This document shows, piece after piece, positions 10,383-49,970 of a DNA stretch of 50,611 nt (position 1 is the stretch's first letter; each line of letters starts with the position of its first letter). This stretch comes from Longicatena caecimuris. Its GTDB lineage: Bacteria > Bacillota_I > Bacilli_A > Erysipelotrichales > Erysipelotrichaceae. The stretch spans positions 1 to 50,611 of the forward strand of contig NZ_SMBP01000024.1 in the NCBI RefSeq assembly GCF_004341945.1, given 5' to 3'. The notes under the pieces were generated by a model. That model did no database searches, was not told where the DNA came from, and saw nothing but the letters and a program-made list of their open reading frames with translations. The position numbers and the translations under genes were made by a program.

Positions 10383-10547
10383 GAACTTCACACCTCCTGA
10401 TTTATATGTAACAATATACCTTTCAAGAGTGATATAAAACACCCGCAAACTGGACAGTCTACGGGTGAAAGTTTTATCTACTTGCTTTCTACCTCGGTAA
10501 CATGATTAAGCTGTTACGCCGTTACTGTCTATGGTATATTGATAACA
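10383..10547 (-). promoter_or_regulatory. L10 (rplJ) leader, autoregulatory RNA
   Basis: The 5' UTR of rplJL contains the strings expected of the Firmicute L10 leader: ATAGACAGTAACGG, then TTAATCATGTTACCGAGG and GAAAGC. L10 (with L12) binds such leaders to shut down the operon. The leader ends in an intrinsic terminator (next entry), so control here is probably transcription attenuation. A covariance search with the Rfam L10 leader model would settle it. Confidence 0.75.
10434..10466 (-). terminator. Attenuator in the L10 leader
   Basis: A 12-bp stem with G-U pairs (10441-10466, arms beginning ACCCG and ending CGGGT) is followed on the minus strand by GTTTTAT. It sits about 50 nt before the rplJ start, where an attenuator would act. 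Confidence 0.7.
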
Positions 10548-10553
10548 TCGAAT

Positions 10554-43890: not shown

Positions 43891-47284
<3,394 letters not shown>

Positions 47285-47355
47285 ATAAAGCTATTACTAA
47301 AAAACACTATGTGATTTCATCTTGACAAATTATTAAAAATCAGTAAAATATAGTC

Positions 47356-47412
47356 ATCAGGACAATGCCTTCGGGCAAAGGAAAGGGAACGACCGAGAAT
47401 CGTTCCCTTTTT
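47356..47412 (+). ncRNA. Putative antitoxin RNA, copy 1
   Basis: Promoter TTGACA (47322-47327), 16-nt spacer, TAAAAT (47344-47349). The predicted RNA of about 57 nt carries TCAGGACAATG at its 5' end, hairpin TGCC-TTCG-GGCA (47366-47377), and an 11-bp terminator stem AAAGGGAACGA/TCGTTCCCTTT with loop CCGAGAA, ending in five T. The same hairpin, read on the minus strand, lies at the 3' end of the convergent peptide mRNA, so the RNAs are complementary there. Antitoxin role inferred from layout. Confidence 0.65.
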
Positions 47413-47435
47413 GACGTTGAAAGGAGTTCAGGACA

Positions 47436-47522
47436 ATGAGAGAATGGCTAATGGAAACCTACACGTGTGATAAGGACCACGGCAGGGCTATCTTACGCTT
47501 CAATAAATCAATTATCTGCTAG
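47436..47522 (+). other. 28-codon plus-strand frame present in every unit (doubtful gene)
   Basis: Open in all five units (47436-47522, 47844-47930, 48238-48324, 48634-48720, 49028-49114), starting MREWLMET after AAAGGAG 9 nt upstream and ending KSIIC. Most differences between copies change the residue (for example YTC, CMC, CSC; His/Arg; Gly/Asn; Arg/Gly/His; Asn/Asp), unlike the peptide gene on the other strand. It lies beyond the RNA terminator and is antisense to the 3' part of the peptide mRNA. I think its SD-like motif is more likely the complement of an anti-SD segment in that mRNA, but a short read-through peptide is possible. Confidence 0.3.
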
Positions 47523-47583
47523 TACGCAGGTATTCGATCCATATCAGCAGAAAGATAAATAAATATACCAAATCCACTGTCAT
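47512..47583 (-). CDS. Putative type I toxin-like membrane peptide, copy 1
   Basis: 23-residue peptide: MTVDLVY, hydrophobic core LFIFLLIWI, then EYLRTSR, so one membrane span with a basic end, like Fst/BsrG/Ibs-type peptides. It overlaps a second frame (47519-47620, 33 codons, start MAHIECGVV) that has a strong AAGGAGG 8 nt from its ATG; the peptide's own GGAGG is only 2 nt from its ATG, so translation may be coupled to that leader frame. Across the five copies, five of six variable bases are silent in the peptide frame, while all six alter, truncate or extend the leader frame. The mRNA would run from about 47635 to the shared terminator at 47382 (about 250 nt). Toxicity is untested; the family is not one I recognise. 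Confidence 0.7.
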   Translation of the reverse strand: MTVDLVYLFIFLLIWIEYLRTSR

Positions 47584-47641
47584 TTCCTCCCATAACTACG
47601 CCACACTCAATATGTGCCATTAGTTAGACCTCCTTCCTTTT

Positions 47642-47647
47642 TATATA
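47642..47647 (-). promoter_or_regulatory. -10 element for the peptide mRNA (copy 1; conserved in all units)
   Basis: TATATA directly upstream of AAAAAGGAAGGAGG; no consensus -35 is present 17 nt away. If used, the mRNA would begin almost at its ribosome binding site. The same arrangement occurs in each unit. Confidence 0.4.
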
Positions 47648-47763
47648 CGACACGAGCGAGTAAAAAACATAAAGAAAATGAAAAGAGTTTATTTTTCTAA
47701 AACCACCTTTTAAATCCACCTTTATTATCTTGACAAATTATTGAAAATCAGTAAAATATAGTC

Positions 47764-47820
47764 ATCAGGACAATGCCTTCGGGCAAAGGAAAGGGAACGA
47801 TTCTCGGTCGTTCCCTTTTT
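47764..47820 (+). ncRNA. Putative antitoxin RNA, copy 2
   Basis: Promoter TTGACA (47730-47735)-16-TAAAAT. Same 5' motif, UUCG hairpin and stem as copy 1, but the terminator loop is TTCTCGG, the exact reverse complement of the copy 1 loop. Confidence 0.65.
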
Positions 47821-47919
47821 GACGTTTAAAGGAGTTCAGGACAATGAGAGAATGGCTAATGGAAACCTGTATGTGTGATAAGGACCACAACAGGGCTATC
47901 TTACACTTCAATAAATCAA

Positions 47920-47991
47920 TTATCTGCTAGTACGCAGATATTCAATCCATATTAGCAGAAAGATAAATAAATATACCAAATCCACTGTCAT
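47920..47991 (-). CDS. Putative type I toxin-like membrane peptide, copy 2
   Basis: Protein identical to copy 1 despite three base changes (a Leu CTA, an Ile ATT and a Tyr TAT codon), all silent. The same changes put a stop (TGA) in the overlapping leader frame after 28 codons. This is the clearest sign that the 23-residue frame, not the leader frame, is under protein-level selection. Confidence 0.7.
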   Translation of the reverse strand: MTVDLVYLFIFLLIWIEYLRTSR

Positions 47992-48157
47992 TTCCTCCCA
48001 TAACTACGCCACACTCAATATGTGCCATAAGTTAGACCTCCTTCCTTTTTATATACGACACGAGCGAGTAAAAAACGTAAAGATGATGAAAGGAAATCAT
48101 TTTTCAAATACGACTACTTTATCTTGACAAACTATTGAAAATCAGTAAAATATAGTC

Positions 48158-48214
48158 ATCAGGACAATGCCTTCGGGCAAAGGAAAGGGAACGACCTCGA
48201 ATCGTTCCCTTTTT
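48158..48214 (+). ncRNA. Putative antitoxin RNA, copy 3
   Basis: Promoter TTGACA (48124-48129)-16-TAAAAT. Terminator loop CCTCGAA, same orientation as copy 1 with two base differences. Confidence 0.65.
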
Positions 48215-48313
48215 GACGCTTAAAGGAGTTCAGGACAATGAGAGAATGGCTAATGGAAACCTGTATGTGTGATAAGGACCGCAACAGGGCTATCTTACGC
48301 TTCGATAAATCAA

Positions 48314-48385
48314 TTATCTGCTAGTGCGCAGATATTCGATCCATATCAGCAGAAAGATAAATAAATATACCAAATCCACTGTCAT
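48314..48385 (-). CDS. Putative type I toxin-like membrane peptide, copy 3
   Basis: Protein identical to copy 1; differences are a Tyr TAT and an Arg CGC codon, both silent here, but Pro to Ser and Tyr to His in the overlapping leader frame. Confidence 0.7.
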   Translation of the reverse strand: MTVDLVYLFIFLLIWIEYLRTSR

Positions 48386-48553
48386 TTCCTCCCATAACTA
48401 CGCCACACTCAATATGTGCCATTAGTTAGACCTCCTTCCTTTTTATATACGACATAAACGAGTGAAAAACGTAAAGAATATGAAAAGAGCTTATTTTTTC
48501 TGAACCCTCCTTTATTGTCTTGACAAATTATTGAAAATCAGTAAAATATAGTC

Positions 48554-48610
48554 ATCAGGACAATGCCCTCGGGCAAAGGAAAGGGAACGATTCGTGGTCG
48601 TTCCCTTTTT
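48554..48610 (+). ncRNA. Putative antitoxin RNA, copy 4
   Basis: Promoter TTGACA (48520-48525)-16-TAAAAT. The first hairpin has a CTCG instead of TTCG loop, and the terminator loop is TTCGTGG, inverted relative to copy 3 apart from one base. Confidence 0.65.
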
Positions 48611-48709
48611 GACGTTTAAAGGAGTTCAGGACAATGAGAGAATGGCTAATGGAAACCTGCTCGTGTGATAAGGACCACGGCGGGGCTATCTTACGCTTCA
48701 ATAAATCAA

Positions 48710-48781
48710 TTATCTGCTAGTGCGCAGATATTCGATCCATATCAGTAGAAAGATAAATAAATATACCAAATCCATTGTCAT
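48710..48781 (-). CDS. Putative type I toxin-like membrane peptide, copy 4
   Basis: The only copy with an amino-acid change: residue 3 is Met instead of Val (GTG to ATG). Other differences are silent. The hydrophobic core LFIFLLIWI is unchanged. Confidence 0.7.
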   Translation of the reverse strand: MTMDLVYLFIFLLIWIEYLRTSR

Positions 48782-48948
48782 TTCCTCCCATAACTACGCC
48801 ACACTCAATATGTGCCATTAGTTAGACCTCCTTCCTTTTTATATACGACACGAGCGAATAAAAAACGTAAAGATGAAGAAAAGAAATCATTTTTTTAAAT
48901 ACGACTACTTTATCTTGACAAACTATAGGAAATCAGTAAAATATAGTC

Positions 48949-49004
48949 ATCAGGACAATGCCTTCGGGCAAAGGAAAGGGAACGATGGTGGTCGTTCCCT
49001 TTTT
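48949..49004 (+). ncRNA. Putative antitoxin RNA, copy 5
   Basis: Promoter TTGACA (48915-48920)-16-TAAAAT, with a slightly diverged spacer (ACTATAGG). The terminator loop is shortened to six bases, TGGTGG. Confidence 0.65.
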
Positions 49005-49103
49005 GACGCTTAAAGGAGTTCAGGACAATGAGAGAATGGCTAATGGAAACCTGCTCGTGTGATAAGGACCACGGCGGGGCTATCTTACGCTTCAATAAAT
49101 CAA

Positions 49104-49175
49104 TTATCTGCTAGTACGCAGATATTCAATCCATATTAGTAGAAAGATAAATAAATATACCAAATCCACTGTCAT
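49104..49175 (-). CDS. Putative type I toxin-like membrane peptide, copy 5
   Basis: Protein identical to copy 1, with two Leu CTA codons, an Ile ATT and a Tyr TAT, all silent. As in copy 2, the leader frame is cut by TGA. Last unit of the array; unique sequence begins 90 bp to the right. Confidence 0.7.
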   Translation of the reverse strand: MTVDLVYLFIFLLIWIEYLRTSR

Positions 49176-49313
49176 TTCCTCCCATAACTACGCCACACTC
49201 AATATGTGCCATTAGTTAGACCTCCTTCCTTTTTATATACGACACAAACAAGTGAAAAACGTAAATTTCTTATCATGAATTATCTAAAACAAAAAAAGTC
49301 AAATGACAAAGAC

Positions 49314-49364: not shown

Positions 49365-49970
49365 TTATTTCTTCATTTCTACATGTATTTGAGGTCGTCC
49401 TTCTACCTCATGACAATGACGACATCTAGCCTCATATTGTTCACTGGCTCCCACAACGATAATAGGATCATCATAGCTTGCAGGCTTACCATTTACCAAA
49501 CGCTGTGTCCGTGTAGCAGGTGCTCCACACTTTGTACAAACAGCAGTCAGTTTCGTAACAAATTCCGCGTGCGTGAATAATTCCGGCATAACACTAAATG
49601 GAACACCGCGAAAATCCATGTCTAATCCAGCCGCCATGACACGCTTGCCACGATCAGCAAAATAGTCACAAATCTGCACAATTTCTTCATCGAAAAACTG
49701 TACTTCATCAATAGCAATTACATCATAACTGTCATCTATGTAATCAAAAATTTCTCTTGCCTTACTGATGTTAAAGCTTTTTACACTGCTTCCGGCATGT
49801 GATACAACGCATTCCTCACTATAACGATTATCAATCTTCGGTTTAAAAACAGCTATTTTTTTCTTAGCATATTCCAACACCTTGATTCTACGAATCAATT
49901 CTTCTGTTTTTCCTGCAAACATACAGCCACTGATGACTTCCAGCCACCCTTCACGATATTGTTGATACAT
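49365..49970 (-). CDS. tdk: Thymidine kinase
   Basis: 201-aa type II thymidine kinase of the salvage pathway. P-loop GCMFAGKT (15-22), Walker B with the base Glu89 (AIDEVQFF), and the zinc site Cys145, Cys148, Cys183 and Cys186. Full length. It is normally adjacent to prfA in Firmicutes; here the bgl operon and the tandem array lie between. A TATAAT at 49999-50004 is the likely -10, with a poor -35. Confidence 0.97.

Follow-up and report, generated by a model that had tools for sequence, protein, structure and literature searches.

A five-unit type I toxin-antitoxin-like array with a competence-type promoter in Longicatena caecimuris

In several Gram-positive bacteria, competent cells pause their growth or attack siblings, by means other than the kind of module described here. 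The genome of Longicatena caecimuris (Erysipelotrichaceae) contains a tandem array in which every unit opposes a strong short-RNA promoter to a convergent frame for a tiny hydrophobic peptide. What is this array, and under what circumstances would its peptide be made? A sequence-only reading had proposed a new type I toxin-antitoxin family. Here, we analyzed the whole 50,611-nucleotide stretch of contig NZ_SMBP01000024.1 that holds the array (the window) and extended the comparison to the genome and its relatives. Beyond the earlier reading, we describe a competence-type promoter, which is the main new result, together with a leader open reading frame (ORF), a second RNA pairing site, a predicted fold-back over the peptide start, and inverted hairpin loops. 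The array is probably a competence-controlled type I toxin-antitoxin-like module in five copies. Because each copy has a competence-gene promoter, production of a toxin-like peptide appears to be tied directly to natural transformation. If this is true, a type I module that belongs to a competence regulon would connect DNA uptake with the control of growth in a new way; furthermore, the analysis yields a testable competence promoter for the Erysipelotrichaceae, the Firmicute family of L. caecimuris. In a literature search for competence-regulated toxin-antitoxin systems, only toxTA of Haemophilus influenzae was found (PMC6957337). It resembles the array as a toxin-antitoxin module with a competence promoter but is type II (with a protein antitoxin), Sxy/CRP dependent, single copy, and unrelated (PMC6957337).

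Organization of the array

TRF identified a single array at 47319-49265 (period 394, 4.9 copies, 91% matches, score 3140), which confirms the five tandem units of about 395 bp claimed for 47322-49265. Position 47322 is the start of the first plus-strand −35 box, and the array ends at 49265 with the last minus-strand −35 box. Elsewhere in the window, a ribosomal protein L10 leader (RF00557) lies at 10426-10552 on the minus strand.

47319..49265, tandem array of five ~394-bp units (starts near 47320, 47729, 48122, 48519, and 48913)
45848-47284, plus strand, BglA-like glycosidase ORF left of the array (name read from translation)
49365-49970, minus strand, thymidine-kinase-like ORF right of the array (name read from translation)

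The plus strand of each unit carries a sigmaA-type promoter, TTGACA-16-TAAAAT (11/12), followed by a predicted short RNA of 59 to 60 nt whose 3′ end falls in the T-run of a hairpin. The strongly promoted RNA of the sequence-only reading therefore keeps its promoter, although not its length of ~57 nt. Weak matches to the promoter in two relatives (G241 and G142) were rejected as homologues; because these fall on tRNA promoters, the promoter in the array looks like a strong sigmaA promoter. Within the short RNA, the terminator hairpin is preceded by a small one, GCC-UUCG-GGC, with CUCG as the unit 4 loop; the RNA's 5′ end and hairpins are very conserved across units. The unit 2 RNA folds better than dinucleotide shuffles (z −4.0). 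No Rfam family matched the array. We set aside as unlikely to be coding a 28-aa plus-strand ORF (MREWLMET...) with a good-looking ribosome-like site, given that one of its 10 changes is synonymous and nine are nonsynonymous; what resembles a ribosome site there is complementary to the 3′-UTR element predicted to fold on the peptide start.

47322..47349, plus strand, sigmaA-type promoter of the short RNA, unit 1 (others at 47730, 48124, 48520, and 48915)
47353..47412, plus strand, short RNA, unit 1, ~60 nt (5′ end inferred)
47761-47820, 48155-48214, 48551-48610, and 48946-49004, plus strand, short RNA, units 2 to 5

Peptide, leader frame, and predicted mRNA fold

The minus strand would give a convergent mRNA, as previously described, with a length of ~264 nt instead of ~250 nt. 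It contains a 23-aa ORF with a hydrophobic core that is intact in all five copies. A GGAGG motif lies 8 nt upstream of codon 3 and only ~2 nt upstream of the first ATG, which makes codon 3 the more probable start; the peptide is probably of 21 aa, (M)DLVYLFIFLLIWIEYLRTSR, a shortening of the 23 residues first read from this intact hydrophobic frame. Among the five copies, the 23-aa frame has six variable sites, of which five are synonymous third-position transitions and one is at codon 3 (GTG to ATG in unit 4). Since ~39% of transitions in the frame would be synonymous, five of five would arise by chance with a probability of ~0.01. The variation between copies is supportive of a coding frame, not conclusive, and because no homologue was found, the case for conservation rests on five recent paralogues.

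47377..47640, minus strand, peptide mRNA, unit 1, ~264 nt (ends placed from the promoter and hairpin)
47512..47577, minus strand, peptide, unit 1, 21 aa from GTG (23 aa from 47583 with the first ATG)
47920..47985, minus strand, peptide, unit 2, 21 aa
48314..48379, minus strand, peptide, unit 3, 21 aa
48710..48775, minus strand, peptide, unit 4, 21 aa, start ATG rather than GTG
49104..49169, minus strand, peptide, unit 5, 21 aa
47519..47620, minus strand, overlapping leader ORF MAHIECGVV..., unit 1, ribosome site AAGGAGG
47942-48028, 48321-48422, 48717-48818, and 49126-49212, minus strand, leader ORF, units 2 to 5

At the start of the mRNA, the leader ORF (28 to 33 aa) overlaps the peptide frame in a Mok-like arrangement and has a better ribosome site than the peptide frame does. 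It is invariant before the overlap, all six variable sites inside the overlap are nonsynonymous, and it stops earlier in units 2 and 5.

The unit 2 mRNA has a predicted fold of −82.1 kcal/mol, compared with a mean of −61.8 kcal/mol for dinucleotide shuffles (z −4.4). Two 3′-UTR segments, CAUUGUC and CUCC, are paired in this fold with GACAGUG and GGGAG of the peptide start region, and the full mRNA is predicted to have an unpaired start codon only very rarely. The 3′ UTR is thus predicted to fold back over the peptide start, and the GTG-to-ATG change in unit 4 preserves the predicted pairing.

A promoter in common with competence genes

Upstream of the peptide frame, all five units carry WTTAYG-N18-CGTATATAAAA, which matches the competence promoter of the genome; on the minus strand of the array, no sigmaA-like promoter was found upstream of this frame.

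47644..47673, minus strand, competence-type promoter, unit 1 (TTTATG variant)
48052..48081, minus strand, competence-type promoter, unit 2
48446..48475, minus strand, competence-type promoter, unit 3
48842..48871, minus strand, competence-type promoter, unit 4
49236..49265, minus strand, competence-type promoter, unit 5

The sequence TGTCGTATATAAAA occurs exactly six times in the 2.95-Mb genome, once in each array unit and a single time upstream of dprA. The match outside the array (C1:261387), which at first looked like part of a sixth unit, proved to be the promoter of dprA. A genome-wide search with WTTACG-N18-CGTATA gave 11 exact sites, compared with one for the reversed control. Four are array units (unit 1, with TTTATG, is excluded), and others precede dprA, comEA-comEC, comGA (named by its T2SSE match and the pilin-like genes after it), and the radC operon. 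Further exact sites lie before a protein kinase ORF, before a 93-aa ORF of the MG284/MPN403 family, and within an open frame. The start codon lies 19 nt from the promoter in both dprA and comEA, 22 nt in comGA, and 23 nt in the leader ORF of the array. Because the element is common to dprA, comEA, and comGA at a similar distance from the start, sequence comparison gives good support for placing the array promoter in the competence regulon; a promoter element common to core competence genes is what marks a late competence (ComX/SigH-type) regulon. The element also occurs in a genome of another genus of the family (G014), where it lies upstream of dprA, of the radC operon, and of a hypothetical gene. 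At least one exact site is present in 67 of 268 family genomes, and no comparable promoter arrays were seen among the exact sites listed in these genomes or in viral contigs.

Outside the array and the known competence genes, loci with the element are L124 (C9:97722+), L125 (C9:42224+), L126 (C18:23543+), and L128 (C7:47858+), with downstream ORFs for, respectively, the protein kinase, a hypothetical 165-aa protein, a hypothetical 154-aa protein (at a weaker site), and the 93-aa MG284/MPN403-family protein. These ORFs are candidate new members of the competence regulon. The hypothetical gene in G014 is a 154-aa ORF (L182, G014:C142), possibly the counterpart of the C9:42224 ORF. In addition to the comG-like cluster on C1, the L. 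caecimuris genome has another type IV pilus cluster, which is PilB/PilT-like and includes pilin-like proteins (L148, G000:C13:5500-11500).

Which sigma factor might recognize the promoter? The genome has one sigma factor gene between rlmB-like and nusG-like genes, the position of sigH in Bacillus subtilis; its scores against SigH models are under the curated cutoffs. A SigH-like factor could plausibly recognize the array promoter. Factors of the sigmaH type drive competence genes in Lactobacillus sakei and Staphylococcus aureus (PMC3364868, PMC3486894). The streptococcal SigX box, TACGAATA, lies ~20 nt before the ATG of dprA, comEA, comGA, and radC (PMC6001120), and CGTATA in the array promoter resembles its CGAATA core. 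A directed search of the Erysipelotrichia literature found no description of a SigH competence regulon.

Pairing between the two RNAs

As the sequence-only reading had it, the two RNAs overlap at one shared hairpin, AAAGGGAACGA-loop-TCGTTCCCTTT, which can fold on either strand and is a candidate terminator of both; the U-tract that follows it on the minus strand is weak. Complementarity between the RNAs amounts to 36 to 37 bp at the hairpin. An 11-nt direct repeat, TCAGGACAATG, present in two copies in every unit, provides 11 extra base pairs between the 5′ end of the short RNA and the 3′ UTR of the mRNA.

47382..47410, both strands, shared hairpin, candidate terminator of both RNAs, unit 1
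47790-47818, 48184-48212, 48580-48608, and 48975-49002, both strands, shared hairpin, other units
47357-47367 (short RNA 5′ end) and 47428-47438 (opposite the mRNA 3′ UTR), plus strand, direct repeat TCAGGACAATG, unit 1

Within the first 100 nt of the mRNA, the short RNA pairs no better than its shuffled versions do, and complementarity to either ribosome site does not exceed chance. Since the short RNA targets the element that would mask the start, its effect could be decay, refolding, or release, and it could therefore also activate. Decay of the mRNA appears the likeliest effect in view of Gram-positive precedents (PMC4147584).

Relationship to known systems

No credible DNA homologues were found in 60 relatives or in 316 genomes of the order, nor were credible protein homologues of the peptide in 273 family genomes, a search that is weak for short peptides. 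Viral contigs, phages, and plasmids yielded no homologues of the array, and 32 pattern matches in genome contigs were set aside as probable chance matches. The peptide had no match in Pfam or NCBIfam up to an E value of 10; the sequence-only reading, which did not recognize it as a named family, agrees with this test, which is weak at such a length. The proposed new type I family is upheld in its layout, but because no homologue was found, the "family" at present amounts to five paralogues within a single genome.

A hydrophobic peptide, an antisense RNA convergent with its mRNA, a 3′ hairpin common to both, and tandem copies bear out the type I-like layout of the sequence-only reading; the same arrangement is known from Gram-positive type I modules (PMC4147584). 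As in type I modules, the peptide is small and hydrophobic (21 to 23 aa), and the predicted antisense RNA is complementary to the mRNA. The tandem multiplicity recalls Ibs/Sib and Ldr/Rdl of Escherichia coli, where tandem copies likewise encode tiny hydrophobic peptides and every copy has an RNA of its own. Unlike these, the array has convergent RNAs with a hairpin common to both, and its short RNA lies off the peptide ORF (47353-47412 versus 47512-47577 in unit 1), whereas in Ibs/Sib the RNA covers it.

The closest systems in terms of how they work are Fst/par, txpA/RatA, bsrG/SR4, and hok/sok. In Fst/RNAI-RNAII (par of pAD1), as in the array, convergent RNAs share a terminator and direct repeats create a second complementary region (PMC4147584). 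The repeats of the array, however, lie at the short RNA 5′ end and in the mRNA 3′ UTR rather than pairing over the toxin ribosome site; no Fst similarity of the peptide was found (Pfam and NCBIfam profiles, weak at this length), and the competence-type promoter and five tandem units also set it apart. The RNAs of txpA/RatA and bsrG/SR4 of B. subtilis are likewise convergent and overlap at their 3′ ends, with the ribosome site outside the complementarity; txpA/RatA acts by decay and bsrG/SR4 by refolding (PMC4147584), either of which would suit the array. Their overlaps are 75 to 120 nt compared with ~37 nt here, and the array differs in its 21-aa peptide (without TxpA or BsrG homology in Pfam/NCBIfam profiles, the basis for this comparison), its tandem copies, and its competence-type promoter. 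As in hok/sok of plasmid R1, the leader ORF overlaps the toxin-like ORF and a predicted 3′-to-5′ fold-back masks translation; in contrast, the antisense RNA of the array is convergent at the 3′ end and leaves the leader ORF uncovered, and the peptide is unrelated in both length and sequence. Judged by its sequence, the array is type I-like and outside any named family.

Proposed mechanism and alternative explanations

We propose that in growing cells the strong sigmaA-type promoter of each unit would produce the ~60-nt antisense RNA. At the onset of competence, a competence sigma factor, most likely SigH-like, would transcribe the ~264-nt mRNA from WTTAYG-N18-CGTATA alongside the dprA, comEA-comEC, and comGA transcripts. 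Ribosomes would load at the leader ORF, with its strong ribosome site, and the 21-aa hydrophobic peptide would be translated from the overlapping frame by coupling, as in mok/hok, while the 3′ UTR would fold back on the peptide start. The antisense RNA would pair with the mRNA at the hairpin and, via the 11-nt repeat, at the masking 3′ UTR, probably leading to RNase III decay. Where mRNA exceeds antisense RNA, the peptide would enter the membrane and slow or arrest the competent cell. The sequence itself shows the layout, the promoter common to the array and competence genes, the conserved frame across copies, and the complementarity of the two RNAs; transcription, the part played by SigH, coupling, decay, membrane action, and toxicity are inferred. 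In the fullest form of this proposal, which is somewhat less likely than not, the locus would be a competence-triggered type I toxin array, with a membrane peptide encoded by five genes, an antidote RNA from a housekeeping promoter, and a dose-set growth arrest or self-killing in each round of competence.

The peptide might instead be a nontoxic small membrane protein, or a signaling or bacteriocin-like peptide of the competence programme, silenced by the short RNA outside competence and raised in dose by its copies. The competence-type promoter and conserved hydrophobic 21-aa frame would fit, and bacteriocin-like operons occur in streptococcal late competence regulons (PMC6001120). We consider this unlikely, given that an antisense RNA that is convergent with its mRNA, shares a hairpin with it, and pairs with it through a repeat is a type I hallmark (PMC4147584) and that the predicted masking of the start suggests a product whose leakage is costly. 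The five strong, tRNA-like promoters of the short RNA and its very conserved 5′ end and hairpins could also mark a multicopy regulator of other mRNAs; the competence-driven minus-strand RNA would then serve it as an antisense switch or a sponge, and the encoded peptide would be incidental. The synonymous bias and preserved start codon of the peptide frame, as well as a leader ORF with a canonical ribosome site at a com-gene-like distance from the promoter, make such a regulator quite improbable. Finally, within the searches made, the array is found in one genome only, as might be expected if its minus-strand promoter resembled the competence element by accident and the locus, whether or not it is type I-like, were just an ordinary repeat, either constitutive or silent. 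An accident is highly improbable: the motif counts, spacing, and association with dprA, comEA, comGA, and radC are far beyond chance, dprA and radC recur with the element in another genus, and the minus strand lacks a sigmaA-like promoter 5′ of the peptide.

History of the array

The hairpins of units 1 (47382-47410) and 2 (47790-47818) are exact reverse complements of each other, and those of units 3 (48184-48212) and 4 (48580-48608) are one base off the same pattern. Units 1 and 3 have the same loop orientation, and units 2 and 4 have the opposite one. Together with the spacers of units 2 and 4, which are 93% alike, this orientation suggests that a two-unit block was duplicated. Inversion of the hairpin between neighboring units keeps the stems and alters loop pairing between units; because hairpins 1 and 2 are reverse complements, the loop of short RNA 1 is identical, not complementary, to that of mRNA 2. 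The inverted terminator loops may give each unit its own pairing specificity.
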